The translations under genes and the position numbers were made by a program. Positions 18,830 to 43,275 of a stretch of DNA of 64,000 nt are shown piece after piece. Each line of letters begins with the position of its first letter. The first letter of the stretch is position 1. This DNA is from an uncultured Flavobacteriaceae bacterium (lineage in GTDB: Bacteria; Bacteroidota; Bacteroidia; Flavobacteriales; Flavobacteriaceae): assembly GCA_947502975.1 (NCBI GenBank), contig CANNBV010000004.1:310001-374000 (forward strand), read 5' to 3'. The notes under the pieces were generated by a model, which was given only the letters and a program-made list of their open reading frames with translations, had not been told where the DNA came from and searched no databases.

Positions 18830-21800
18830 TTATTTCAGTTTCAAAAAACTCAATTCACTATTGGCAGTCAACAACATTAAATACGATTCATCATTAATAA
18901 TGATTTGCTTAATAGCTTTTGTTTCAGTATTTGAAATAGTTTGATTTAAAACTTTAAATTTTGGGTCATCATTCGCTTCCAAAATATAACCTTGAGAAGC
19001 ATCATAACGAATGGTTTCTACCTCAGCGTCATATATGGTGCCAACACCTATAACTTCTAGAGCCTCATCATGATTTATATCTAAAAACTCAAAATCTAAG
19101 GTAGGCCCACACTGTCCTTTATCTGGTAACCTGTGGAATTCAAAATTGGAGTTGCCTTTATTTTCTATATAATATGAACTAAACGATGTTACATTTAAAT
19201 GCAATGCATTCTCAATATTGTCTTTACCATAAATATCAAAAATGTTTGAATTAGCGAAGGCTTTGTAAGATTCAATTTTGTCTTTTAAAAACGGTGTTTG
19301 TTCTGTGGAACATTCTTTTCCGCGAATGGGAAATATATCATCATCATAAGTTTTACTTAATGCAAAATCATAGCTGTTATTATCATCAAAATAATTAGCG
19401 TAAACATGTAATGGTTTTGACTCTGTTGGATGAAATTTATTGTTTTCGCCTAAATTCCCTACGAAATAATCCTCGTCTCCATCATTATCAAAATCTATCG
19501 CTTTTACGGTTTGATACCATCCTGTTTTAGAATCTGTAGATAGTTCTTCTTTCGTAAAAATACCATTGTCATTATTAAAAAATGAAACTGGTAACCACTC
19601 TCCAACAACTATTAAATCTTTGTCACCATCGTTGTCATAATCTGAAAACACTGCATCATTTACTAACCCTAAATATTTTAATGCTTTTGCGCGTTTATTT
19701 GTGGCATTTATAAAAGTTCCGTTTCTGTTTTCTAGCAAATAAGATTCTGGTGCTTTGGGGTATTTTCCAGGAATTACTCTTCCGCCCACAAACACATCTA
19801 AATCACCATCGTTATCAAAATCGTCAGCTGCAATTGCTTTTGTAACTCCCAGTATTTTAGGCAATCTCCCTTTTGAAAATTGTCCTTTTCCATTATTAAT
19901 GTATAATCGGTCTTGTAATAACGTATCATTTTCCGGTAAACTATAATTTCCTGAGGCAACATATAGATCCAAATCTCCATCGTTATCGGCATCGAAAAAC
20001 AACGCATTAGTATCATTGTAGGCTTTATCTTTTTCAAATAAACTATGGTTTATTGAAGTGAATTTACCTGAACTATTTTGAAGATACATCTGTGCAGGAT
20101 GACCAGCGGTATTACCAATAAACAAATCTTCTAAACCATCATTATTAATATCAGCCACAGATACGGCCGCATCAATTGTAGATTGTTTTTGTGGCAATAA
20201 CACCTGTAAATTATAGTCATTAAAATCCACTGATTTGTGCTTATAATTTATGCCGAATTCTGGAGCTGAAACACTTTCTAAAAGCGGTTTAGTTTCTTCA
20301 ATACTTGCCTCAACATTTTTTGCATTTTGATAAGACAGTGTTATATGTTGATTCATCTCAATATTATTCAACGTTTCTACTTTACCATCATTCCAAATCA
20401 CTTTTAAACTATCCACAGCTTTAAATTCACCCAACCCAAAAATCAAATTACTGCTTACGGAAGACTGATAGCCTCTGCTAGTATACACTTCTTTAGATTG
20501 TTTTACATTACCTGTGAAAAGCAAAACTTTAGTACCAATACCATTTCTATTGTTTTCAGAACCTACTAAACTTATTTTTAAATAGTTTGAAGTACTATTA
20601 TTTCTATAGATAGATGCTTCATCAGATTGATTATTCAACACCAAATCTAAATCACCATCATTATCAAAATCTGCATAAGCTGCACCATTGGAATTTATTT
20701 TGGCATCAAAACCGTAATCAAAGGAAACATCTTTAAACGTATACCCTCCATTATTTAAAAACATATAGTTGGTCAATTTTTCTGAAGGTATGAGTTGTAA
20801 CGCGGCTTCTAAATTTTTGGCTTTATCATATCTGGATAATTTTCCCTTCATATCCTGCCTAAAATCCTGATTTGCTATATCTTTTTGAATTCCATTCGTG
20901 ACAAACAAATCACTAAACCCATCATTATTAAAATCAGCAATTAGTGGCGCCCAACTCCAGTCGGTTTTGGCTACGCCAGAAAACTGAGCAATGTCACTAT
21001 AGGTCCCATTTCCATTATTTAATTGCAACATGTTAGACATGTACTGATGATGCCAACCTCTGTTCACCATACGATTAAACTTTGAGGTACTCATGGTTGC
21101 CATATTTTCCTTTCCACGTTTTCTATCAGCAGCCAACATATCTAAAACTACTAAATCGGGTTGTAAATCATTATCAATATCAGCAAAATCAGAACCCATA
21201 CTATTATTTGAAACATGCTTAAATCGGGTTAAAATCTCATCTTTAAACGTACCATCTTGATTGTTAATGAATAAAAAATCAGGCTCCAGAAAATCATTAG
21301 CCACATAAATATCTGGCCAATTGTCATTATTAAAATCACCAATAGAAGCACTCAATCCCCAAGCAACTTTTTGGGTACCCGCTGCTTTGGAAACATCAAC
21401 ATACTTACCATCGTCATTTCTAAATAGGCGGTCCAAATCATCTTTGTTAATTCTGGTTTGTAGATTAGGGTTCAACAGTGTTTGCATTTTAGCTTCCAAA
21501 CTGTGATTGACTAAATACATATCTAAATCGCCATCTCTATCATAATCAAAAAAATAAGCTTGGGTAGAAAATCCATTTTCTTTTAGTCCATAGTTGCAGG
21601 CTTCTTCTTTAAACTCATTATTTTTTTGATTAATAAAGAGTTTGTTTTGCCTTGCACTTCTATCCTTTACAGAAGCGGATTTGCACACATAAATATCTAA
21701 CCATCCGTCATTATTAATGTCAATCATCGTTACACCAGTAGACCAACCTTTGTTATCTTCTACTCCAGCAGATTTGGTAATATCTTCAAACACAAAATTG

Positions 21801-30097: not shown

Positions 30098-31582
30098 TTA
30101 ATTTCTAAATGTATTTTCCCTTCCAATATCAGATTGATACATTTCTTGTGATGAATGTCCAACGCCGGGAACAATCTGCAATTTTTGATTTTCGAGTATA
30201 GAAGTCCCATAGAAATCTTGTAAATGATCAAAATAATTTAAAGCCCTTTCAAACCTGTCATTCCCTTGAAGTATTGCTTCACATAACGAATTAATTGAGG
30301 TTGCTTCTTCACTTGTATCATTATCATTTTGACCAATTAAATATGTAACTTTTCGTTGTTGCAATCTATCACGGTAAACATCTGCGCCTCCTATTTCTCT
30401 TAAATAAAAGGGCAAGTCATCTAGACCAAATCTATATTCATTATATTCAGGACAACTCTCTATCGCAGAAGCACTAGGTACAGCAAATGTGTTTTCTGTT
30501 CCTAGGACTTTGCGCTTATTATTTAAATATGTATAGGTTCCTGGGTTATTAACCACAAAGCTTATATCTATGCCTTTTGAATTTAAATTCTCTACTATTG
30601 GAGTACTGGCAGAATATCTAGCTATAAATTGCCCCCCTGCAGAGTGCCCTGTAAATACTATTTTTTCTAAGTTAGGGTATTCAGATAGTTTAGTAATTAA
30701 AGAATCCATAACTGTAAAAGAAGAAATCTGTTCTTCTCTAGGGTTAGAATCTTCATCTAAAGAGGTAAAACCTATACGCCATCCTGTACCGCTCCAATAC
30801 AGGTGTTCTTCATCTAAGGAGAATTCGTCTATTTCTTCTTCACCTACAAATTGTGGTGCTACAATAAGTATTGACTCCAAATTAGCAGATTCTAAATTGG
30901 CTGCTCCTAACATATTGTTGTAATGATTTCCTGCTGTATGGCTAGAACCATGTAATGCTATTATTGCTCTTGCTATATTACTATTACTAGTATCACGTAT
31001 ATCTTCCCTATTTGAAAAATATGGAATTTTAAAGGTAGAGCCTCCTTCACTTAAAGTAAATTTCTTATCTCCAATAAAATCTTCAGGATCATTAGGATCT
31101 ATTGGTTTAAATGGAGGTATAGTAACAGTAATTAAGTTACCTTCACTAGAAGAATTCCCAATTGTAATACCATTAGTAGTTTGTAATTCAAACCTTAAAG
31201 ATCTATTTTCAGTTGCATTTTCATTATTAATCACTTGTTGTAATAACACTACTTTTGTAATAGCTTCTCCTTTATCAATAATAAAAGACCTCGACTTTGA
31301 TAATTTAAAATCTTCTCCCTCAATAGCACTATTCTCATTTGGATAACTTACTGTATATGGAATCTCAATAGGTAGATTTATTTTGGGGCCTTCATATCTG
31401 AGTTCTACAGTAAATGGTTCAGATCTTAAACGATCTACCTCTACACTTTCAGATGTGAAGTATACACTTATTTCAGAAAATGGAATTATAGTTTCTGTTG
31501 TGGCATCATCTTTATCACAACCTATAAATATGATTATAACTAATGGTATTATGTAGTATTTGATTTTTTTTATTCGCTTCAT
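30098..31582 (-). CDS. Lipoprotein with Calx-beta-like domain and alpha/beta-hydrolase domain
   Basis: 494 residues, lipidated at the Cys of IFIGCDKDD. Residues about 35-160 form a beta-sandwich (ISVYFTSESVEVDRLRSEP, TVSYPNENSAIEGEDFKLSK) like Calx-beta/DUF4843 domains. Residues about 185-490 are an alpha/beta-hydrolase: ARAIIALHGSSHTAG, nucleophile elbow FTGHSAGGQF (Ser of G-H-S-A-G), a probable Asp in YLIGQNDNDTS, and a final His in VPGVGHSSQ. The substrate may be an ester; no family substrate is evident. It is the last gene of the SusCD unit, 17 nt downstream of the IPT/TIG gene. Confidence 0.8.
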   Translation of the reverse strand: MKRIKKIKYYIIPLVIIIFIGCDKDDATTETIIPFSEISVYFTSESVEVDRLRSEPFTVELRYEGPKINLPIEIPYTVSYPNENSAIEGEDFKLSKSRSFIIDKGEAITKVVLLQQVINNENATENRSLRFELQTTNGITIGNSSSEGNLITVTIPPFKPIDPNDPEDFIGDKKFTLSEGGSTFKIPYFSNREDIRDTSNSNIARAIIALHGSSHTAGNHYNNMLGAANLESANLESILIVAPQFVGEEEIDEFSLDEEHLYWSGTGWRIGFTSLDEDSNPREEQISSFTVMDSLITKLSEYPNLEKIVFTGHSAGGQFIARYSASTPIVENLNSKGIDISFVVNNPGTYTYLNNKRKVLGTENTFAVPSASAIESCPEYNEYRFGLDDLPFYLREIGGADVYRDRLQQRKVTYLIGQNDNDTSEEATSINSLCEAILQGNDRFERALNYFDHLQDFYGTSILENQKLQIVPGVGHSSQEMYQSDIGRENTFRN

Positions 31583-31599: not shown

Positions 31600-33288
31600 C
31601 TAATTAATTCGAAATACAACTGTCAATTGTGCGCCTTCTTCTGGATTAGCATCATCATAAGTTTCTGCTTCACGGCCAACATTATTTGCCGTTGCTCCAG
31701 CAGATACCCCTGTAGCTTGAAATATGAAATTCATACTATTACCGTCTGCCCAATCTCCTCTATTTATTATTTCTTGAACTACTGCCGAAATATCGGTTGT
31801 TCTTTGATTAGGGCCAGCTTCAGTTCCAGTCCACTCAGGAATATTCCAAACTGAACTAGCAGTTGTTAAAGTTCTATCTGATAGATTATTAATAACTTCT
31901 TGATAAGGTTGTGCATTTCCAATATTCTCTCCAAAAATGGTCATTTCTGTTGGGTCTGCCCCAGCTGTTTGATCAGCCACAAACTGAATACTTGCTTCTT
32001 GTATGGTTACTCCTGGCGGGATATTTACAGCGTTAAATCGAAGTCCAATTTTTTGAAGTCCTAAATCTGGAGTTCCAAATGTATCAAACTCTCCTAATTC
32101 TAAATCGCTGCTAGTTAAACTCATTCTACCATCTTCAGCTTCTTCTACATCGTCATTCTCATTATTTATGGCAATAATTACAGTTACAATACTATTATCT
32201 ACCGTAAAATCTGTAGTACTTGTTCCTGTTTCTCCACCAACCTCTACTGTAATGAATCCAGTTTGCGCTCCTTCTGGTACCGATGTTATTATTTCAGTTT
32301 CTGTACTAGCCGTTACTACTGCTGATACTCCATTGAAATTAACACTATTATCTTCTAGCACACTACTAAAATTGGCACCTGTTATAATTACTTCATCTCC
32401 TGGGGCTGCAGTTTCTGGTGAAAAAGCAACAATAGAAGGTATTGTTATAAAATCGTCTTCACTAACAGCCAATAAACGTTCTATTTCAACTGCTATTTTT
32501 CCTGTATTTGCTTCTGTGGGTACAGTAACGACTAACTGTGTAGTATTTGCGGAAATTATTGTAGCTGGTATACCATTAAAAGTTACATTGTTGTTTTGTA
32601 TATCTCTATTAAAATTAGTTCCAGTAATTATTATTTCTTGATTTGCAACACCTTTTATAGGCTCGACGGAAACTATAACTGGTGCTATTGTAAAGACTTC
32701 TATTGTTCCGATTTGTCCACGCACTTCTACTGTTAATGATCCTGTAGTAGCTTCGTCTGGTACAATAACTGTGAGTTCAGTTTCAGAGGCTTGCGTGATT
32801 TCTGCCTCAACACCATTGAATTTAACACTATTTTCTGAAGCTGTAGGTCCAAAGTTTTCTCCTTTAACAACTACAGTTGCGCCTACTGCTGCTCCTGTAG
32901 CACTTAATTCTGAAATTCTTGGTCCTGCTACTATAGTAAAAACCGGTCCTTCTACATGAAATTTAGCTTTAGAAATAGAAATAGAACCTGTAGTTGCTCC
33001 CTCAGGAACAATAACGGTTAATTCTGTTTCAGTAGCAGTTGTTACTGTAGCTAAAACATCACCAAAACTCACCCTGTTATTTAGCACTACGCGGCTAAAA
33101 TTTGTACCATTTATTGTTATAATTCTTCCAATATCTCCAAAATCTGGAACTATACTTGTAATGGTTTGTTCTTTTTCTGCTTCTGGTATAATTCGATAAT
33201 CTTCATCATCACATGATACTGTTATACTTGCTGCTATAAGCAAAAGACCAAAGTAGAAGATTACTTTTTTGTTTATTTTAATTTTCAT
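31600..33288 (-). CDS. Surface protein with four IPT/TIG domains and a C-terminal DNRLRE-like domain
   Basis: 562 residues, lipoprotein signal with Cys in SITVSCDD. Four tandem IPT/TIG immunoglobulin-like repeats (about 45-122, 124-203, 205-284, 286-365), each with the pattern V-x-G-x-N-F ... V-x-F-N/G-x-x-x-A ... V-P-x-x-A-x-T-G. The last 190 residues (DLGLQKIGLRFNAVNIPPGVTI, TTDISAVVQEIINRG) look like the DNRLRE-type stalk domain. It is probably a surface-exposed glycan or protein-binding element, as in SusE/F-like positions of PULs. It is followed by the hydrolase gene 17 nt on. Confidence 0.82.
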   Translation of the reverse strand: MKIKINKKVIFYFGLLLIAASITVSCDDEDYRIIPEAEKEQTITSIVPDFGDIGRIITINGTNFSRVVLNNRVSFGDVLATVTTATETELTVIVPEGATTGSISISKAKFHVEGPVFTIVAGPRISELSATGAAVGATVVVKGENFGPTASENSVKFNGVEAEITQASETELTVIVPDEATTGSLTVEVRGQIGTIEVFTIAPVIVSVEPIKGVANQEIIITGTNFNRDIQNNNVTFNGIPATIISANTTQLVVTVPTEANTGKIAVEIERLLAVSEDDFITIPSIVAFSPETAAPGDEVIITGANFSSVLEDNSVNFNGVSAVVTASTETEIITSVPEGAQTGFITVEVGGETGTSTTDFTVDNSIVTVIIAINNENDDVEEAEDGRMSLTSSDLELGEFDTFGTPDLGLQKIGLRFNAVNIPPGVTIQEASIQFVADQTAGADPTEMTIFGENIGNAQPYQEVINNLSDRTLTTASSVWNIPEWTGTEAGPNQRTTDISAVVQEIINRGDWADGNSMNFIFQATGVSAGATANNVGREAETYDDANPEEGAQLTVVFRIN

Positions 33289-33348: not shown

Positions 33349-34527
33349 CTATTGCATGCTATCTGGTTGGTAGATTAAAACCTCATCATAATAAACTTCT
33401 TCTCTACTGCTATTTACTTGAGTTTCTATAACCAAAGTGTACGCCGCTATACCCTCTAAAAATCCAGAATCTATCAAATTCCACTTACCTGTAAAATCAT
33501 CAAGTTCATCACCATTAATACTCAAAAGTTCTAAAATTTCTGATGTATTATCTCTTTTTTCAATAGTTGCAAAGATGTTAATCAAATCAGTGCCTCCATA
33601 ACCATTTCCATCGCCACGAATTCTAGCAAATGTTTGAACTCTTATACCAGATGAAACTATATCATCAGGGACTTCAACTCTATCAAAAGTTAATCTAAAA
33701 ATCCCGTCAACATCTTCAATTTGATAACCTTGTTCCCCGTCTATATATGTGCCTACGTCTTCGGTTTTTTTAGTAACACCTATTTCCTCATTTATAAATC
33801 CACTTTGAGTAGTTTCTATAAATTCTGCTCTAAAACCTATTTCATCATCAACACCCGTACCTCTGGCTGTATGCATTACATGACGTAATCCATCTATATT
33901 GAATAATTCACCTGTAAAGTTAGGGTCCTGACCATCTGGACGAATATAATCAGCTCCAGGGTCATCATCAGCAAAAGGCTCTTCAAAAGAGGTTCCTCTT
34001 ATTTTCTGTGGTGGTGGGATGAAAAATGTTAAAGAAAAACGAATCGCTTGATTGAATGCTGGATTATCAAATAATTCAGGCCCAGCTTCACCACCATTAT
34101 TTGTGTTTGTATCACTATCAAAATCAGTTAATTCTGCACTAAAAACACCATTTGGTGTAGTAATGATCGCTACAAAATCTAATGTTTTTTCAATATCAAA
34201 TTCATCAACAGTTAAGTTTAAAGCTTCTAAAATAGCTTTACCAGAAATATTTAAAGTAGCAGGAAAAGATGTTATCGTTACAAATTTATCTACAACAACA
34301 TCGCCATAAGTCATTTGTAAATCATATGAAATAATATTATTGTTAGGATCTTCAACATTATGTGAAAAAACGATAGTTTCAATTTGTAAAAAATCAAGTC
34401 TAAATGTTTCTGGAACTTTTTCCCAAACTACTAAACCTCCTCTTTCAAAATTTTCCTCCAGTACATCGCTGCTATTGTTACAGGAAATTCCTAGTATTAG
34501 TAATGCTAATAGATATATTTTTTTCAT
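33349..34527 (-). CDS. SusCD-linked lipoprotein, function unknown
   Basis: 392 residues with lipobox LGISC (about Cys16). The N-terminal half is beta-rich (TFRLDFLQIETIVFSHNVEDP), the C-terminal half (from FIPPPQKIRGTSFEEPFADDDP) contains a jelly-roll-like segment with QTFARIRGDGNGYGGTD that suggests a carbohydrate-binding-like sandwich. No named family recognised. It lies 8 nt downstream of the SusD-like gene, where SusE/F-type surface binders usually sit. Confidence 0.65.
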   Translation of the reverse strand: MKKIYLLALLILGISCNNSSDVLEENFERGGLVVWEKVPETFRLDFLQIETIVFSHNVEDPNNNIISYDLQMTYGDVVVDKFVTITSFPATLNISGKAILEALNLTVDEFDIEKTLDFVAIITTPNGVFSAELTDFDSDTNTNNGGEAGPELFDNPAFNQAIRFSLTFFIPPPQKIRGTSFEEPFADDDPGADYIRPDGQDPNFTGELFNIDGLRHVMHTARGTGVDDEIGFRAEFIETTQSGFINEEIGVTKKTEDVGTYIDGEQGYQIEDVDGIFRLTFDRVEVPDDIVSSGIRVQTFARIRGDGNGYGGTDLINIFATIEKRDNTSEILELLSINGDELDDFTGKWNLIDSGFLEGIAAYTLVIETQVNSSREEVYYDEVLIYQPDSMQ

Positions 34528-34535
34528 GATTAATA

Positions 34536-36146
34536 TTATTTAATAAAACCAGCAGGATTGGTATCCCAAAAAACCTGAGTAGTAATAGGGTGTTGGTTTA
34601 TTTGATTATTATTATTTATGGCGTCTTCTGGCAGAGAAAACGATCTTGGGAATGGTGTATTATTATCAAATATTGGAGATGTAAATACCGAAGGGAATCC
34701 AGTTCGTCTGTATCCATTATAAGATTCTGTTGAGTTTCCAAAAGATGCTAAATAATATTCTTTTAAGATAATATCTAGTTTACCTTGATCGTCTGCTGCT
34801 GCAAAAGCACTCATAACTTCGGCGACATAAGCATCTACTTCTTCTGAAGTTGCAGCAAAAAGAGAATTTGTTGCAGCACCGTTAGCAAAATTTAAAACTT
34901 TATTCATTGACTTTCTGATACCTGATTCTAACAAAAGAGAGGCATTATCATTTGTTTGTAATGATACAGCCGCTTCTGCTCTTAAAAAGTCTATAAAAGA
35001 AGATAATAATATAGGTAATATACCAGCACCAGATTGATGTTGTGTTTCTATTGCAAAATCTGGAGCACTTGGATTATTTTCATCAAAAGTACCGCCAACT
35101 GGATACAAACCATAGGTAGCTCTAAAAATAGCATCTGCTCCTCTTGACCTAGTATCTCCATGATCTCTACCATAATAAGAATTACCTAAATAACAGAAAT
35201 TAAAATTGCTAGAGCCTACACACCCAATTAAATTTTCTGAAGGATCAACATTATTTTGACGGTATATATAATATCTAAGTCTAGGGTCTGGGTTTGTTTT
35301 ATCATTTAAAAGTAGATTTAAAAAATCGTTCCCAATAAATTGGTCAAACCCTTCTGGTGCATAACCCGTATTAAAATCTAGATGACGACTATTAGGATCT
35401 ACAGCATTAGTACTGTATTGAAACTGAAAATCTTCATCTGGAGTAATAAAATCATTATCTGCTATTAATACATTAATCTTAACTACATCCCCCATATTTA
35501 CAAGCATTTTAAGCTTTAAAGATTTAGCTAATCTAATCCATGCTCTTTGTTGATCTGCGAAATTAGTTGCTTCAAAAGGATCATAAAATAAATCATTAGT
35601 TGGGGGTATCGTTGCATTTGATATATCTGCAATGGCTAAATCGATACGTTCTAAAACTGTTGCATAAATTGTTGCATCATCATCTGCTTTAGGGTTAAGA
35701 ATACCTTCATCTGCTCTATTCGCTTCAGTGAAAGGGATATCTCCCAAATAATCGACCATTGTTACTGTCGCATAAGCTGTTAAAATATCGGCCATACCCT
35801 TATGAAATAATAACTTCGTATCGTTAGCAGCTAGATCTCTTATTATAGTTGCATCTTGTGAAAATTCATAATAACGTCTATACTCACCGTTTAAAACACT
35901 TTGATTTGCTACATCTGCATAACTTTCGTTTAAATACGTGTAACGCATCACCTCATCTGTTGTACGGTTTAAATCTTGCAAAAAATCGGCTGTTTCTTTT
36001 TGCACATTATTTAACAAGAAGTTTGGATCTGCCTGATCTGGAGTGAGTAAATTTGGATTTTCCTGAAAGCTTTCATCAAAGCCCCCTAACTCACAAGATG
36101 TGAATAGTGCTAAAAAGAATAAGCCTATTATAGTTGTTTTTTTCAT
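34536..36146 (-). CDS. SusD/RagB-like outer-membrane lipoprotein
   Basis: 536 residues, lipidated at Cys in FLALFTSCELGG. TPR-rich helical SusD fold of the SusD-like_2 type: TPDQADPNFLLNNVQKETADFL, then MVDYLGDIPFTEANRADEGIL (a hallmark of this branch), WIRLAKSLKLKMLVNM, and C-terminal GYRRTGFPSVFTSP. It forms the lid of the SusC transporter and binds the imported ligand at the cell surface. Coordinated with the SusC gene 19 nt upstream. Confidence 0.93.
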   Translation of the reverse strand: MKKTTIIGLFFLALFTSCELGGFDESFQENPNLLTPDQADPNFLLNNVQKETADFLQDLNRTTDEVMRYTYLNESYADVANQSVLNGEYRRYYEFSQDATIIRDLAANDTKLLFHKGMADILTAYATVTMVDYLGDIPFTEANRADEGILNPKADDDATIYATVLERIDLAIADISNATIPPTNDLFYDPFEATNFADQQRAWIRLAKSLKLKMLVNMGDVVKINVLIADNDFITPDEDFQFQYSTNAVDPNSRHLDFNTGYAPEGFDQFIGNDFLNLLLNDKTNPDPRLRYYIYRQNNVDPSENLIGCVGSSNFNFCYLGNSYYGRDHGDTRSRGADAIFRATYGLYPVGGTFDENNPSAPDFAIETQHQSGAGILPILLSSFIDFLRAEAAVSLQTNDNASLLLESGIRKSMNKVLNFANGAATNSLFAATSEEVDAYVAEVMSAFAAADDQGKLDIILKEYYLASFGNSTESYNGYRRTGFPSVFTSPIFDNNTPFPRSFSLPEDAINNNNQINQHPITTQVFWDTNPAGFIK

Positions 36147-36165: not shown

Positions 36166-39100
36166 TTAGAAGTTGATAGAAACCGATAAGGCGTATCTTT
36201 TAGTAGTTGGTGTTGTTATACCTGTAGTTTCCGGATCGAAATTAAAACCGGCTGGAAACCCTGGGGCATAAAAAAATAGGTTTCTTCCACTCAAAGTAAA
36301 ATCTACACTTTCAAAAGGCAATTTTTTAAAAGTGGATTTATTAAGCCTATATGATAAAGCTATCTCACGAATTCTAAATACTGAATCATCAAAAGTTCTA
36401 TTCTCCTCTGCATCATAGAAATTACTAAACACGGCATTATTACCAGTAACCTGAATATTATTAGGTACCGTATTACCATTTGCATCTAGAATTGGTAAAC
36501 CTGTTCCAACATCACCTAAAACCCCTGGAATTACAAAACTACCTTCTCTATTTTCCGTATCTGTTGTTACACCTCTTTCTAGCAATATTTCAAAAAGATC
36601 TGAGCGTCGATCTCCACCATGTGTATACTCGAGTTGTGTTGATAATTTAAAGTTTTTATAACTTAATGTATGGATGGAGGTGGCTCTGAAATCTGGTTGA
36701 AAATTTCCAATAATTTCATCTTGAAGCCCTACATCTTCACTGGTAATTAATACTCCCGTAGCTGGGTTTATTAAAGCATTACCTTCAGAATCACGAACCA
36801 CATAACTCCCTAGAAGTATTCCAATCTCTTCGCCTTCAATGATATTATCTCTTCGTGTAAGATCTCCTGGTAAATCTACTACAACAGATTTAAAGCTTGT
36901 AAATGTGTTTCTAATATTCCAGTTAAATGCAGATTCTTTGAATAATTTAATTCCTAGATCTATTTCGATTCCTTCTGTATCTACTCTACCTGCATTTATA
37001 ACTGTATCTGTGAAACCTGTTGCAGGGGCAATTCCTGTTTCGAAAATTTGATTATCAGAAATTCGTGAAAAAACTGAAGCTTGTAACGTAATTGTATTAT
37101 TAAAAAAGTTACCTTCTAAACCTAACTCAAACTCTTTGTGTAACTCAGGTTTTAAATTCGCATTTGGCAAAGTCCCAAACAACGAGTTAGTCACTATTAA
37201 ATTTCCATTAATATCACTAAATTCTCGAGGGTCTGATGATAAGCTTGCTCTTGTATTAAATAAGTTTGGAAAACCAGAAGACGTGGCATACGCTGCTCTT
37301 ATTTTTAAATAGTTTACAAAACTATCTCCGAAATCAAATGCTGATGTGGGTATAAATGACACTGAAATTCCTGGATAAAATAAATTTTGATTAGCCTTTT
37401 CAACACTGGCTCCTTTATCAAACCTCCCAGATAAATTAAGGTAGAGGAATCTGTCGTAATCAAAATCAAACTGACCAAAAGCTCCAAAAAGGTTGCGTTT
37501 ATTGGTGTCAAAATCGCCTTCTCCTGGTGTTCTAAAGTTATTAGGCCTTAACACTCCAAATACCAATTGATCTGAATATTCGGATTCTTGAGATCTAAAT
37601 GTTTCATATCTAGAATTCACACCTAACTGAGAATCGAATCCTATTTTATCAGAAATCTTATAACTAGAAGCCAAAATAAATGTGTTATCGATATCAAATT
37701 CATTATCTGAATCTATATCTAAAGATCCTAGAGCTTCAGTAGCTCCTATACCTCCTTTATTTCTAAAACTTAAACTATTACCATTTTCTACTTGAAGACC
37801 TCCTCTGTATTTTAATGTATGATGCTCATTAAATTCATATGCTAAGTTAACAGTTGCATTCATCCTACGTACTATTGTATTTGTGCCAGTATTTTCGATG
37901 ATCCATTTAGGGTTTTCCTCATCTGTTCTATAATAGACATTAGCCCCAGTTACTGGATCTTGAAAGGGTAAATTATGGATATCTAAACTCCTTGGGATGA
38001 TATATGCGTTTTCAACTATATCTCCTCCATTTTGAGAATTTCTATTTCTAGAACTGTATGATATGGAAGCAGATAATTTTAACTTATCTGTTAACTGAGA
38101 AGTTCCTCCCAAACTCATTGTATATCTCTTAAAATCATTATTCCCCAAAATACCTCCTTCATCTGTATATCCTAATGAAAAATTTAAAGAGGTTTTTTCT
38201 CCTGTAGCACTTAAATTAACAGATGTAATTTGACCTATGCCAGTATTAAAAAAATCTTTTACGTTATTACGAGCTGCTTCGTAAGGTGCTTCAGCATTTG
38301 CAAATTCTGGAAAACTAGAATTCCCAGCTAAAGGATGTGGAATAAAATCTATATCTGTAAAACGCGCACCGTTACTACCATAATTACCAATAGTACTAGC
38401 ATCTGTCACCAAATTATTTCCAACACCATAAGTGTTTTGAAAATCTGGTAAATTAGCTACTGTATTTGTGTATGATGTTTGTGTTATTTTAGCAGTAAAA
38501 CTCTTTACACCTACTTTAGCAGCTGCTGCTTTTGTTTCAACAAGAATAACACCATTTCTACCATCACTCCCATACAAAACTGCTGCATTTAAGCCTTTAA
38601 GTACGGTGATATTTTCTATGCTATTTGGGTCGATATCTAAAAGGTTCCCAGAAAACGGCACATTATCTACAACAATTAGAGCTGCATTATCTTGGTTTAA
38701 AGATAAATTACCTCTAACTCTTATACTAGCACTAGCACCACTACTACCATTTGAAGGCGAAATTAAAACTCCTGATATTTTACCTTGTAATGTTCTAGCT
38801 ATATCCGATTCTGGACGGGTTTCTGTTTCTTCAGTATCCACTTTAGAAATAGCATATCCTAAAGCTTTTCTAGATTTTTCTATACCCTGAGCGACAACAA
38901 TTATTTCTTCAAGCTCTAGGTTATTTTCTTTTAAAATGATTTCAAGAGGCTTATTTGTGGCAATAATTTCTTGAGTTAAGTATCCAAGAAATGAAATTTC
39001 TAAAATTGCACCTTCAGTAGCATCAATAGAGAATCTACCATCAAAATCTGTTGAAACTCCAGTGGTAGTTCCTTTTATTAAAACCACAGCACCTGCTAGG

Positions 39101-39534
39101 GGTAATCCATTTTCATCAGTGATGACGCCAGTAATTTTACTCTGATTTAATTGTTTTGCATTTAAACCATCATCATATTCTCTTTTTATTATAATTTGCT
39201 TCTGAATGTATTCAACAGACACATTAAGATTTTTTAATAGTTTATCTAATACAGATGATAATTTTTCCTTTTTTGCAAATATGCTTACAATTTTATCTGT
39301 TTGAAAAACACCTTTCTCATATAAAAACTTAAAATCTGTTTTCTGTTCTATTTCATCAAAAACAGATCTTAGAGTTACCTCTTCCATTTCTAGAGTCACT
39401 TTTTTATTCTGAGAATATGTATTCGCATAAGATTGAAGTAGCGATACAAAAAGAAGAAAATAGGTAAGCTTCATTTTTAAACTTATTTTCAATGGGATAA
39501 GCTGCAAAGCCTTCCCAATTATGATTTTTTTCAT
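36166..39534 (-). CDS. SusC/RagA TonB-dependent outer-membrane transporter with STN signalling domain
   Basis: 1122 residues. After the leader (KMKLTYFLLFVSLLQSYANTYSQ) comes an STN domain (about 48-100, VTLRSVFDEIEQKTDFKFLYEKG), then a carboxypeptidase-like domain (about 130-210, GVITDENGLPLAGAVVLIKGTT), a plug (about 215-340, VRVRGNLSLNQDNAALIVVDNVPFSG) and a 22-strand barrel ending in KRYALSVSINF. The STN domain allows signalling to the FecR protein encoded upstream. TonB-dependent import with SusD; substrate unknown. An inverted repeat in the leader to fecR (39589-39612) may shape the transcript. Confidence 0.94.
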   Translation of the reverse strand: MKKIIIGKALQLIPLKISLKMKLTYFLLFVSLLQSYANTYSQNKKVTLEMEEVTLRSVFDEIEQKTDFKFLYEKGVFQTDKIVSIFAKKEKLSSVLDKLLKNLNVSVEYIQKQIIIKREYDDGLNAKQLNQSKITGVITDENGLPLAGAVVLIKGTTTGVSTDFDGRFSIDATEGAILEISFLGYLTQEIIATNKPLEIILKENNLELEEIIVVAQGIEKSRKALGYAISKVDTEETETRPESDIARTLQGKISGVLISPSNGSSGASASIRVRGNLSLNQDNAALIVVDNVPFSGNLLDIDPNSIENITVLKGLNAAVLYGSDGRNGVILVETKAAAAKVGVKSFTAKITQTSYTNTVANLPDFQNTYGVGNNLVTDASTIGNYGSNGARFTDIDFIPHPLAGNSSFPEFANAEAPYEAARNNVKDFFNTGIGQITSVNLSATGEKTSLNFSLGYTDEGGILGNNDFKRYTMSLGGTSQLTDKLKLSASISYSSRNRNSQNGGDIVENAYIIPRSLDIHNLPFQDPVTGANVYYRTDEENPKWIIENTGTNTIVRRMNATVNLAYEFNEHHTLKYRGGLQVENGNSLSFRNKGGIGATEALGSLDIDSDNEFDIDNTFILASSYKISDKIGFDSQLGVNSRYETFRSQESEYSDQLVFGVLRPNNFRTPGEGDFDTNKRNLFGAFGQFDFDYDRFLYLNLSGRFDKGASVEKANQNLFYPGISVSFIPTSAFDFGDSFVNYLKIRAAYATSSGFPNLFNTRASLSSDPREFSDINGNLIVTNSLFGTLPNANLKPELHKEFELGLEGNFFNNTITLQASVFSRISDNQIFETGIAPATGFTDTVINAGRVDTEGIEIDLGIKLFKESAFNWNIRNTFTSFKSVVVDLPGDLTRRDNIIEGEEIGILLGSYVVRDSEGNALINPATGVLITSEDVGLQDEIIGNFQPDFRATSIHTLSYKNFKLSTQLEYTHGGDRRSDLFEILLERGVTTDTENREGSFVIPGVLGDVGTGLPILDANGNTVPNNIQVTGNNAVFSNFYDAEENRTFDDSVFRIREIALSYRLNKSTFKKLPFESVDFTLSGRNLFFYAPGFPAGFNFDPETTGITTPTTKRYALSVSINF

Positions 39535-39719: not shown

Positions 39720-40886
39720 TTAGTTAATAATTATTTGATTGTTTTCTACTGTATAGGTGAAAGATGCAGATATACTTAGACTTTTCATTACATCATCAAT
39801 ATTTTCTTCATCAAATCTAGCAGTAAATCGTCTTTCATCAAGTGCCTCATTATTATTTATAATTGTAACGTTATATTGTCGCTCCAACTTTTTCTGAATA
39901 TTTTTAAAAGTAACTTCTTCTAATACCAATCTACCATTCATCCATGCAGTATGTTGCTCTAAGTTTGCTTTTCCAATGGTGATACTGTTATTTGTTTTAT
40001 TCCAAGATGCCTTATATCCAGGTTTTAAAATTGCTGGGTGTTGCGAATCAACATTTAGATTTGTTTCGTAAACCTCTACAGCACCCTCAACTAAAGCCGT
40101 ATTTATAATATCATCTTCTGGATATGACGACATATTGAACTTTGTACCCAAAACTTTTACATTTATAGTACTAGCATTTACTAAAAAGGGGTGTTTTGTG
40201 TCTTTAGTTACATCAAAAAAAGCTTCTCCATCTAAAAAGACTTCGCGGCTTAATCCATCTAAGAATTTAATTGGATACTTTAATGATGTTCCTGCATTGA
40301 GATATACTTTTGTTCCATCAGATAAAACAACCTGAAATCGTTTTCCATATGGCACTTTTAATGTATTGTAAGCCAATTTTTCTTCAGGTATATCTTTTTT
40401 ATATTCAAGCAAATTGCCTGTATGTGTTCCTACTATTGTACCGTTAGCATTAGTAATGTTTTTAGTGGCATCTTCAGAAATGGTTTTAATCTCTCCATTA
40501 TCTAATTGTATAGTAATTAACTCTTCTTCTAAAGACAATTCATTCTCAAGTACAACATTATTATTTGTGCTATTTTCAGGCTTTTGAAATAAATATCCAA
40601 GACTAAAAAACACTATAATTATGGCCGCATACTTTAAAAATTGCGATACATTATTATTAAAAAAGCTTTTATGTTTCTTCATTTTCTTATGAAGATCTTT
40701 TTTGATACTTTCAACATCAGGTTCGTTCATAACAACTAGTGTTTCATAATGTGTTTTCACAAATGCATCAAACTTATGCTCATTATCAGGGTTTTTAATC
40801 CATTCTGATAGCAAATCTAAATCAGAAACATCAGCCTCATTCGTGAGATATTTTATAATAATATGTTCTATTTTTGGGGAGCTCAT
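39720..40886 (-). CDS. FecR-family anti-sigma factor / membrane signal transducer
   Basis: 388 residues. The N-terminal anti-sigma region (about 1-75) faces the cytoplasm and one transmembrane helix (about 84-102, LKYAAIIIVFFSLGYLF) follows. The periplasmic FecR domain contains PYGKRFQVVLSDGTKVYLNAGTSLKYP (D-G-T-x-V-x-L-N-A), a mark of Bacteroidota FecR proteins. The C-terminal DUF4974/STN-like segment (about 330-388) ends RRFTARFDEENIDDVMKSLS. It relays the SusC STN signal to the divergently encoded sigma factor. Its promoter shares a 33-nt element with the T9SS gene at 41803. Confidence 0.93.
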   Translation of the reverse strand: MSSPKIEHIIIKYLTNEADVSDLDLLSEWIKNPDNEHKFDAFVKTHYETLVVMNEPDVESIKKDLHKKMKKHKSFFNNNVSQFLKYAAIIIVFFSLGYLFQKPENSTNNNVVLENELSLEEELITIQLDNGEIKTISEDATKNITNANGTIVGTHTGNLLEYKKDIPEEKLAYNTLKVPYGKRFQVVLSDGTKVYLNAGTSLKYPIKFLDGLSREVFLDGEAFFDVTKDTKHPFLVNASTINVKVLGTKFNMSSYPEDDIINTALVEGAVEVYETNLNVDSQHPAILKPGYKASWNKTNNSITIGKANLEQHTAWMNGRLVLEEVTFKNIQKKLERQYNVTIINNNEALDERRFTARFDEENIDDVMKSLSISASFTYTVENNQIIIN

Positions 40887-40906: not shown

Positions 40907-40939
40907 GACAATGCCCATTTAGAATACCCTAAGTTTTTT
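40907..40939 (-). promoter_or_regulatory. ECF-type promoter of fecR-susCD, copy 1
   Basis: Minus strand: a run of A, then CTTAGGGTATTCTAAATGGG and CATTGTC. The element differs from 41735-41768 (plus strand) by one base over 33. Likely -35 near ACTTAGGGTA and -10 near TTGTC. It ends 20 nt before the fecR ATG. Confidence 0.8.
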
Positions 40940-41016
40940 AACTTTTTTTTACTTAAAACATCATTTTTTTACATATTTGTATCACTAATAGTGTTTTAAC
41001 ATAATTTATATATTCA

Positions 41017-41613
41017 TTGTCAGTGAATTACAATGACCAAACAACATTAATACTACATTTAAAAAAAGGAGAAGAAAACGCCTTTATCTATTTGGTAGAA
41101 ACCTATAGTAATAGGTTATATGGTTATGCACTAAGTTTATCTCATGATAAAGTTATAGCTCAAGATGTTCTTCAAAATGTATTTTTACGTATTTGGGAAA
41201 AACGAAAAACTATTGATATTAATACCTCATTTCAAAACTATTTATATAAAAGTGTTTATAATGAGTTTTTAAATATTTATAAGAAACAAAAATCAACAAT
41301 GTTATTAGAGCAAAAGTATTTTGAATCACTAGAAAGAATTACTTTAGGCTATAATGATATCTCTCTTAAAAAAGCCATAGAAAAAATCACTATTGAAATA
41401 CAAAACCTTCCTCCAAAATGTAGAGAAGTATTTGTGCTTAGTAGAAAAGACGGACTAACAAATATTGAAATATCTGATTATCTCAACGTTTCCATAAAAA
41501 CCGTAGAGGCACATATAACAAAAGCCTTCTCTGAACTTAGAAAAAAATTAGGGGATAACCTTGAATCTTTTTTATTTTTACTTCTAGACTATCCTAAACA
41601 TCTTAAACGATAA
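41017..41613 (+). CDS. RNA polymerase ECF sigma factor (partner of FecR)
   Basis: 198 residues from TTG at 41017 (TTG-TCA-GTG; the GTG at 41023 is an alternative). Region 2 (about 20-90): YLVETYSNRLYGYALSLSHDKVIAQDVLQNVFLRIWEKR; region 4 (about 125-190): IQNLPPKCREVFVLSRKDGLTNIEISDYLNVSIKTVEAHITKA. It is the cytoplasmic partner of the FecR protein, divergently encoded 130 nt away, and probably directs transcription of the fecR-susCD unit and the T9SS gene through a shared promoter. A CATATTTG -7-like element (40972-40979) may provide its own constitutive promoter. Confidence 0.93.
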   Translation: MSVNYNDQTTLILHLKKGEENAFIYLVETYSNRLYGYALSLSHDKVIAQDVLQNVFLRIWEKRKTIDINTSFQNYLYKSVYNEFLNIYKKQKSTMLLEQKYFESLERITLGYNDISLKKAIEKITIEIQNLPPKCREVFVLSRKDGLTNIEISDYLNVSIKTVEAHITKAFSELRKKLGDNLESFLFLLLDYPKHLKR

Positions 41614-41734
41614 TCTAAGCAATCGTTAGATTACTGTAAAAGAGAATATTTTATTTCTAAAACAACACCTTTAAAAATTTCTTTATTAATTAGAAAACGG
41701 TTGTATTTAAATCATTCTGTTTTTAAAATTAAAC

Positions 41735-41768
41735 AAAAAAACTTAGGGTATTCTAAACGGGCATTGTC
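41735..41768 (+). promoter_or_regulatory. ECF-type promoter of the T9SS protein gene, copy 2
   Basis: Plus strand run of seven A, then CTTAGGGTATTCTAAACGGG and CATTGTC, near-identical to the fecR promoter (40907-40939). It ends 34 nt before the ATG at 41803 and is placed as a -35/-10 unit. This is a clean case of a second target of the same sigma factor. Confidence 0.8.
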
Positions 41769-41802: not shown

Positions 41803-43275
41803 ATGGAAAAAAAATTACTCAGCTTTGTTGTACTAATAATTGTAAGTACTTCAGGCTATTCGCAAACACTCTGGGAAGAGGATTTTGAAACTTATAACCT
41901 TCTCACAGGGTTAGTTGGTATTAATCCAACCGAAGTTGGAGATTATCCAGCAACAACGCCTTTTACAATTGATGCAACAGATACAGATTTCAACGATAGT
42001 GATAATGACTACATTAGAATTTCAGGAGAAAAAATCGAAGCCAGAGATTTAGATGGTGAAGCCATTATTACTTTTGATGCTGTAGATATTTCTAGCCAAA
42101 CAGGAAATGTAACTATCGCCATAGGAGATGTTGATTTTAATATTACATCGAGCTCATCAAATTGGGGGGGAGGAGAATATATTGACGTACTGTATTCTTT
42201 AGATAATGGTACTACCTTTACCCTTATTGTTAACCATAACGGTTTGGGAGATGCTGAACATACTTTTATTATTCCAGAGGCAGGACTTGCAGATGGTGAA
42301 GATTTAGATACTTTTGTTATGGAGACTATCGATCCAGGTGCAGCAACCTCTATTATTCTTCAATTAAGAGGTGAAAATACTGGTTCTAATGAGGAATTTG
42401 AATTTGATGATATTGATATTTCTAGAAATGCTGTTTCACTATGGAGTGAGGATTTTTCCGGATATACAGAACCATCTGGTGTTATAGGAACTAGCTCTGA
42501 AGGATTTGCAAATTCTGGTGATTATCCTTCTAGTGTAACAAAATGGACTTTAGGGCTATTAGATGCTAATCAGTTAAAGACAACTGCTGACTTCGCACTA
42601 GTAACTGATGCCTCCGAAAACGGTTCCAAAGTCTATAAATTAAATGATGTGAATGATAATGTTACTTTTGAAACTCAAGCCATTACGATAAGTGGTGAAT
42701 CTCAAATTACCTTTGGCATGGATATTACGTTTGACGAAACGTCATATGAAGCTGATGATTTCGTTGATGTTTTTTATTCCATAGATGGCGGAACTATTTT
42801 TACATTGGTACAAGATGACGGTAGTGGACACACTTTTGGAGGCGATAATATAACCGCTAATTACAATACTCCAACTACAAAAAGCGTACAATTTTCCGAA
42901 ACATTAAATGGGTTATCAGCATCTGAACTTATTATAAGAATTGTTGCTATTAGCGATAGCGCATCTGAAGACTATGAAATTGATAATATTAAAGTTGTAG
43001 TAGGAAATTCTTTAAGTATCACATCAAATGAATTAGATAGATCAATAAATTTATATCCTAACCCTGTTGAAAATGGTCTGCTTCACTTAAAATCAACATT
43101 AAACAACACCTTATCTATTGATCTTTATGATATCTCAGGCCGTAAAGTTTTTAGTTCCAAAATAGAAAACCAACCTATTACAAAACTAAATGTTAATTAT
43201 TTAAAAAGTGGTATTTACCTTGCTAAGCTAACACAAGGCAATACTAATATTACAAAAAAGGTAGTTATTAAATAA
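41803..43275 (+). CDS. T9SS-exported protein with two repeated domains and a C-terminal sorting domain
   Basis: 490 residues from the ATG at 41803 (the GTG three bases upstream is less likely). Signal peptide KLLSFVVLIIVSTSGYSQ. Two homologous domains of about 190 residues (starting TLWEEDFETYN and SLWSEDFSGY), with shared DFVDVFYSIDGGTTF-like and E-D-Y-E-I/F-D-D/N-I segments, look like lectin-type jelly rolls. The last 75 residues (INLYPNPVENGLLHLK, LYDISGRKV, LKSGIYLAKL) are a type A T9SS sorting domain. It is probably a secreted binding protein of the SusCD regulon. Confidence 0.9.
   Translation: MEKKLLSFVVLIIVSTSGYSQTLWEEDFETYNLLTGLVGINPTEVGDYPATTPFTIDATDTDFNDSDNDYIRISGEKIEARDLDGEAIITFDAVDISSQTGNVTIAIGDVDFNITSSSSNWGGGEYIDVLYSLDNGTTFTLIVNHNGLGDAEHTFIIPEAGLADGEDLDTFVMETIDPGAATSIILQLRGENTGSNEEFEFDDIDISRNAVSLWSEDFSGYTEPSGVIGTSSEGFANSGDYPSSVTKWTLGLLDANQLKTTADFALVTDASENGSKVYKLNDVNDNVTFETQAITISGESQITFGMDITFDETSYEADDFVDVFYSIDGGTIFTLVQDDGSGHTFGGDNITANYNTPTTKSVQFSETLNGLSASELIIRIVAISDSASEDYEIDNIKVVVGNSLSITSNELDRSINLYPNPVENGLLHLKSTLNNTLSIDLYDISGRKVFSSKIENQPITKLNVNYLKSGIYLAKLTQGNTNITKKVVIK

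Follow-up and report, generated by a model that had tools for sequence, protein, structure and literature searches.

In the FecI/FecR/FecA scheme, the ligand signal of an outer membrane receptor passes through the receptor's N-terminal domain to FecR and activates the sigma factor. The excerpted account of Escherichia coli describes FecI as controlling a single promoter and fecIR as not autoregulated (PMC9249621). Bacteroidota genomes can hold many such sigma factors, the promoters of which appear largely undefined in the sections available of two reports (PMC3878776, PMC12596196), one of which calls the prediction of ECF promoters challenging (PMC3878776). Bacteroides thetaiotaomicron is credited there with 50 ECF sigma factors, nearly half of them in polysaccharide loci, and SigW-1, an ECF251-family sigma factor acting on a distant locus, with a TGTT box near position -10, a motif that was non-significant (excerpt of PMC12596196). 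In Flavobacterium psychrophilum, the SM6 motif has a CGT box in the -10 region and targets including T9SS components, and was credited to ECF sigma factors, being possibly common to several of them in the opinion of its authors (PMC9723704, in part). Our literature search, conducted mostly outside subscription papers and ECF re-classification work, returned no statement, in the excerpts covered, of the promoter described here.

Here we analyzed a locus of an uncultured Flavobacteriaceae bacterium within a 64,000-nt stretch of DNA (the window; C4:310001-374000 of a 4.55-Mb assembly in 36 contigs, GCA_947502975.1), in which the minus strand carries fecR, susC, susD and three more genes, and the plus strand an ECF sigma gene, then a gene for a T9SS-type protein (Table 1). 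Comparison of sequences indicates that two near-identical elements, P1 before fecR and P2 before the T9SS-type gene, are very probably the two promoters, and as far as our search shows the only ones, of the FecI-type ECF sigma factor whose gene separates them.

Results

Two near-identical elements flank the sigma gene

The 33-nt element, an A-run followed by CTTAGGGTATTCTAAAyGGGCATTGTC, occurs in two copies with 1 mismatch in 33, namely P1, read on the minus strand as AAAAAACTTAGGGTATTCTAAATGGGCATTGTC (40939-40907), and P2, read on the plus strand as AAAAAACTTAGGGTATTCTAAACGGGCATTGTC (41736-41768) with an extra A at 41735. The initial annotation had reported both copies with their single mismatch and had placed the sigma gene between them; both points were reproduced at the same positions and strands, with the sigma gene at ~41017/41023-41613 (+), a GTG start at 41023 being possible by eye from the Flavivirga amylovorans protein. 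Over the 27-nt core the copies differ by 1 mismatch and have 14/15 spacer bases in common; downstream 9/40 bases are alike, and upstream of the A-run, where the DNA is A+T-rich, 20/36. From the end of the -10-like TGTC to the ATG there are 20 nt at fecR (ATG 40886) and 34 nt at the T9SS-type gene (ATG 41803).

Scanning the window with a 23-nt pattern at ≤3 mismatches gave these 2 matches and 0 in 100 dinucleotide shuffles. The annotation had also proposed a genome-wide search; across the whole 4.55-Mb genome at ≤3 mismatches no copy beyond P1 and P2 was found (reversed control pattern, 0), so that the regulon predicted from the element consists of two promoters at the searched stringency rather than a scattered set. 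In 11 further genomes of the genus, 0 element matches were found at the same tolerance. Since neither pattern nor matrix scans found a copy pointing at the sigma gene, the sigma factor is probably not autoregulated.

Back to back with P1, CATATTTG lies behind a T-run at 40972-40979 (+); it loosely matches the sigma-A -7 box given in the excerpted PMC9723704, and the sigma gene may have its housekeeping promoter here. An ATATTTG behind a T-rich stretch precedes the sigma gene in 6/24 loci examined (L048, L050-L053, L056). A sigma-70-type scan returned 5 sites, compared with 6.7 in shuffled sequence, and a terminator scan none. An inverted repeat, TAATCTAA...TTAGATTA (41612-41634), lies at the sigma stop codon, with no T-run behind it.

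Table 1. Coordinates of the predicted promoters and the genes of the locus (window numbering)
Feature	Position	Strand	Basis or remark
Promoter P1, before fecR (predicted)	40907-40939	-	Sequence and class membership
P1 A-run	40934-40939	-	
P1 AGGGT (-35 type)	40926-40930	-	
P1 15-nt spacer	40911-40925	-	
P1 TGTC (-10 type)	40907-40910	-	
Promoter P2, before T9SS-type gene (predicted)	41735-41768	+	Sequence and F. amylovorans counterpart
P2 A-run	41735-41741	+	
P2 AGGGT	41745-41749	+	
P2 15-nt spacer	41750-41764	+	
P2 TGTC	41765-41768	+	
FecI-type ECF sigma gene	41017-41613	+	TIGR02985, 134.1 bits (cut-off 126.4)
T9SS-type protein gene, second predicted target	41803-43275	+	Por_Secre_tail above cut-off
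fecR-like anti-sigma/sigma-regulator gene	39720-40886	-	FecR and FecR_C domains (PF04773 58.8 bits, PF16344 66.7 bits), both above cut-off
susC-like TonB-linked outer membrane protein gene	36166-39534	-	TIGR04056, 524 bits (cut-off 368.25)
susD-like lipoprotein gene	34536-36146	-	SusD-like_2
Gene without Pfam or NCBIfam match	33349-34527	-	Lipoprotein-like N-terminus (by eye); syntenic in F. amylovorans
IPT/TIG-domain protein gene	31600-33288	-	Syntenic in F. amylovorans
Gene with alpha/beta-hydrolase-like region (by eye)	30098-31582	-	Syntenic in F. amylovorans up to the end of the compared DNA

The sigma factor was assigned by TIGR02985, which we take to stand for FecI-like sigma factors. 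The N-terminal STN domain of the SusC-like protein (PF07660) gave a weak match of 21.9 bits (E 1.5e-4), below the cut-off of 28.4. The C-terminal part of the 30098-31582 protein bears a weak likeness to LpqC poly(3-hydroxybutyrate) depolymerase (E 3.4e-7) and to poly(aspartic acid) hydrolase-1 (E 4.1e-5), so that a polyester or polypeptide substrate is as open as a glycan, and the substrate of the locus may perhaps be no glycan. The T9SS-type protein has a C-terminal sorting domain (PF18962, 50.4 bits, cut-off 27; TIGR04183, 53.5 bits, cut-off 23), its first 20 residues look signal-peptide-like by eye, and its structure model is poor (mean pLDDT 43.6). It seems very rare, being found in 1/397 family genomes (its own) at E 1e-25 and additionally in F. 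amylovorans (64% identity); the search of the family genomes scored 3 candidates per genome at that threshold, and distant relatives could escape it.

A probable promoter class with a preferred spacing in related loci

Searching a species-level genome collection for the sigma protein provided 71 loci with flanks of ≤10 kb, 61 of which were counted over a constant stretch of 150 nt ahead of the sigma gene; the other 10 were dropped by a preset list, the sigma gene lying near a contig end or the match being partial or displaced. AGGGT-N15-YGT was present before fecR in 54/61 loci on the fecR strand and in 0/61 on the opposite strand, with a background elsewhere of 0.0034 per 150 nt of strand (54 matches in 2,356,386 nt). 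When spacings of 8-23 were tried, 15 gave 54 loci, the next best, 10, gave 10, and 14 and 16 gave 0; spacings of 16-21, our first guess, had produced few relevant sites and were discarded. The consensus of 59 sites was aaAAAAGTTAGGGTttTgtAAAattgnnncGTatTA, in which AGGGT and GT follow from the regex used to select the sites and the free evidence is confined to the A-run, TT, AAA and TA; because of these preset columns, the count was made by strand and spacing. A looser regex (spacings 14-16, YGT or YAT) picked sites in 60/71 loci, among them a wrong pick in L084; this locus and L085 have CGC where CGT is expected.

We then scored sites with a promoter matrix built from 58 sites, the window and F. 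amylovorans being left out of training, which assigned 29.5 bits to P1 and 22.3 bits to P2. At ≥18 bits, the matrix produced 68 matches, mostly its own training sites, in the 71 loci and the window, and ten reversed or permuted matrices produced 0-2. Both P1 and P2 show the A-run, TTAGGGT, the 15-nt spacer and YGT at promoter distance. These comparisons support AGGGT-N15-YGT as the promoter class of FecI-type sigma factors in this clade, with AGGGT as the -35 type and YGT as the -10 type box. The looser form [AG]GGGT-N15-YG[TC] was carried by 13 of 33 fecR loci as a raw count (27 from a phylum sample and 6 from the window's own genome, 3 of the latter positive), so that the motif is common to part of the FecR family at most.

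In a Seonamhaeicola metagenome-assembled genome, the gene behind the class site at L084:15967 (-) encodes a sugar MFS transporter, and nagB-like and kinase-like genes come next (by eye). The spacer of this site shares 10/15 bases with the L102 fecR promoter, which lies on the same contig, and 6/15 with that of its own neighbor (by eye).

Probable assignment of P2 to the adjacent sigma factor and the number of targets

P2 has 1 mismatch to P1 and no fewer than 5 (median 12) to any fecR promoter compared from another locus. Two further fecR promoters of its own genome are 14 and 12 mismatches away, and for the other three fecR genes there the looser motif had 0 matches. Eight genomes encode a sigma factor 57-66% identical to that of the window, and the clade fecR-promoter pattern at ≤3 mismatches had one match in seven of them, in each case the fecR promoter, and none in L049. 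Because 7/8 genomes have exactly one match, one promoter per sigma factor seems to be the clade rule at that stringency, for this single pattern, which missed the Flagellimonas oceanensis pair described below; and because the fecR promoter is the one match in those seven, the T9SS-type gene looks like an added second target.

A regulon drawn from a generic TTAGGGT-N15-YGT search of the own genome was rejected. The search returned 18 sites against 9 for a reversed control, which is within about twofold of chance, so that no regulon is claimed from it, and after rescoring by the matrix just three sites exceeded 18 bits, namely P1, P2 and another fecR promoter. A further site of the own genome, L119:1491 (+) near C1 238900, reached 17.8 bits with a different spacer. 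Matrix matches of ≥13 bits away from fecR and with a gene behind them were those of the T9SS-type genes of the window and F. amylovorans, two in F. oceanensis, one in Seonamhaeicola and one in L095 (14.0 bits); those with no gene behind lay at window position 19682 (L133, 13.3 bits) and in L075 (20.9 bits).

In F. oceanensis, a matched pair reading AGGGTATACAAAATCTGTwTTGTC was observed at L053:10884-10922 (+) and L053:18640-18602 (-), before genes for a DUF285/Flg_new protein and a sulfatase, with 14/15 spacer bases in common. These are the sole two copies in that genome at ≤3 mismatches. This pair does not match the neighboring fecR promoter, so that spacer identity between two sites is no sure guide to the sigma factor encoded next to them.

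The two predicted promoters have changed in step between the window and Flavivirga amylovorans

The sigma factor of F. amylovorans (L048) is ~75% identical to that of the window, and its locus retains the hydrolase-like gene (which runs off the end of the compared DNA), the TIG, lipoprotein-like, susD, susC, fecR and sigma genes and the T9SS-type gene at 48-76% identity, with the sigma gene in the same orientation. Its promoters read GTTAGGGTAATACAAAATGGTTCCATC before fecR and GTTAGGGTAATACAAAATGGCTCTGTC before the T9SS-type gene; they match each other at 24/27 core positions (3 mismatches) and have 14/15 spacer bases in common, and no third copy was found in the genome at ≤3 mismatches. Between the window and F. 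amylovorans, the promoters show 8-11 mismatches of 27, and in a four-sequence tree 7 informative columns join the copies within a genome and 0 join the orthologues. Judged from these alignments, the promoters have changed in step, either by co-evolution with the sigma factor or by local copying. P2 and its gene are known as a pair from two genomes only. In F. amylovorans, 3 mismatches separate the T9SS promoter from the fecR promoter of the same locus and only 6 separate it from four others, a contrast less sharp than that of the window, and the fecR promoter (L048:9902-9928) has CATC in place of the TGTC of its T9SS counterpart, so that P1 may be weak in this species.

The annotation's assignment of the element to this sigma factor gains comparative support from the regular position of the class before fecR in the related loci, and its inclusion of the T9SS-type protein in the SusCD regulon is strengthened by the occurrence of P2 before the F. 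amylovorans orthologue and by the joint change of the two copies. Copying, the term it used for the promoter, is one of two live accounts of the matching spacers, the other being co-evolution with the sigma factor.

We give even odds to recent local copying or gene conversion between the inverted copies, occurring separately in each lineage and with a sigma factor blind to the spacer, as the source of the likeness, an account that concerns the likeness only and is compatible with P1 and P2 both being promoters of this sigma factor. Spacers match within genomes and differ across species, the F. oceanensis genome likewise has a matched pair of its own, in exactly two copies at ≤3 mismatches, and inverted copies ~800 nt apart would have a geometry open to conversion. 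Against copying, identity downstream stops at the functional core in the window, although less clearly in F. amylovorans (22/40 bases alike). Across 1711 locus pairs, spacer identity followed sigma identity with a rho of 0.35, barely above the upstream (0.29) and downstream (0.25) flanks, as copying would have it; the difference is small and does not decide between copying and co-evolution. A spacer match of 14/15 was seen in 0/1668 fecR-promoter pairs with sigma factors <80% identical and in 7/43 pairs at ≥80%. A rather doubtful proposal, to which we assign less probability than to copying, is that each FecI-type sigma factor of the clade owns a private promoter code reaching through the 15-nt spacer. 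On recruitment of a second gene, all 27 nt of the element, with the spacer, would be kept to this code, so that both promoters would co-evolve with the sigma factor during species divergence.

An operator of a separate transcription factor governing both genes, in place of a sigma promoter, is improbable. It would account for near-identity over all 27 nt including the spacer, a length exceeding two sigma boxes, and sigma factors are usually held to read two boxes. However, the boxes are directional, prefer a 15-nt spacing and lie before fecR on one strand by a FecI-type sigma gene in most related loci, and a CGT/TGTC box of the -10 kind suits ECF promoters, to judge from the excerpted description of SM6 (PMC9723704).

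Two further readings are very improbable: a dispersed repeat or mobile-element remnant placed by chance before two genes, suggested by two near-identical copies of which one is inverted, is opposed by a count of just two in 4.55 Mb at ≤3 mismatches, by the promoter distance of both from a start codon and by the occupied matching sites in F. amylovorans; and recombination sites flipping the sigma gene as a phase switch, suggested by inverted repeats flanking that gene, are opposed by its conserved orientation in both species, by the absence of any recombinase noticed on reading through the ORFs, and by the single occurrence of the class in 7/8 related genomes (one pattern), so that pairing is not the usual state.

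Discussion

With P1 and P2 taken as promoters of the intervening sigma factor, a sequence of events can be proposed by analogy to FecI/FecR/FecA. Ligand at the SusC-like transporter would act across the inner membrane to alter the FecR-like protein, the signal passing from the N-terminal domain of the SusC-like protein, where STN is recognizable under the cut-off, to FecR and on to the sigma factor. The active sigma factor would bring RNA polymerase to the AGGGT-N15-TGTC sites. From P1, fecR, susC, susD and the following genes would be transcribed as one operon, and from P2, in the opposite direction, the T9SS-type protein, so that uptake machinery and exported protein would come on together. 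In the usual state of the clade there would be one promoter per sigma factor, to which a second target was presumably added here and in F. amylovorans, with the promoters kept alike.

For this clade, a simple rule is gained, namely AGGGT, 15 bases and YGT before fecR, and second targets may be assignable by spacer match. The question of which genes are under this sigma factor is narrowed to a short testable list, and the locus provides a clear natural example of a regulon that has grown from one predicted promoter to two, joining a SusCD importer and a T9SS-type protein. If a private spacer code were true, it would mean a spacer-reading, near-orthogonal set of sigma-promoter pairs.

Among known systems, the ECF sigma/anti-sigma polysaccharide utilization loci of Bacteroides are similar in having the pair beside susCD and in the model of signaling from SusC to the anti-sigma factor, as given in the consulted portions of PMC3878776 and PMC12596196. 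SM6, compared by its -10 part alone in the excerpted source, resembles AGGGT-N15-YGT in the CGT box, the ECF link and T9SS targets (PMC9723704). With the E. coli Fec system, as far as the partial account goes, the locus shares a FecI-type sigma factor, a FecR partner and a TonB-dependent outer membrane receptor, and the single promoter and lack of autoregulation of FecI are much as we infer for the related clade (PMC9249621). Unlike in E. coli, the promoter here lies before fecR, where it would direct transcription of fecR-susCD, the sigma gene is divergently oriented, and a T9SS-type protein is the predicted second target.
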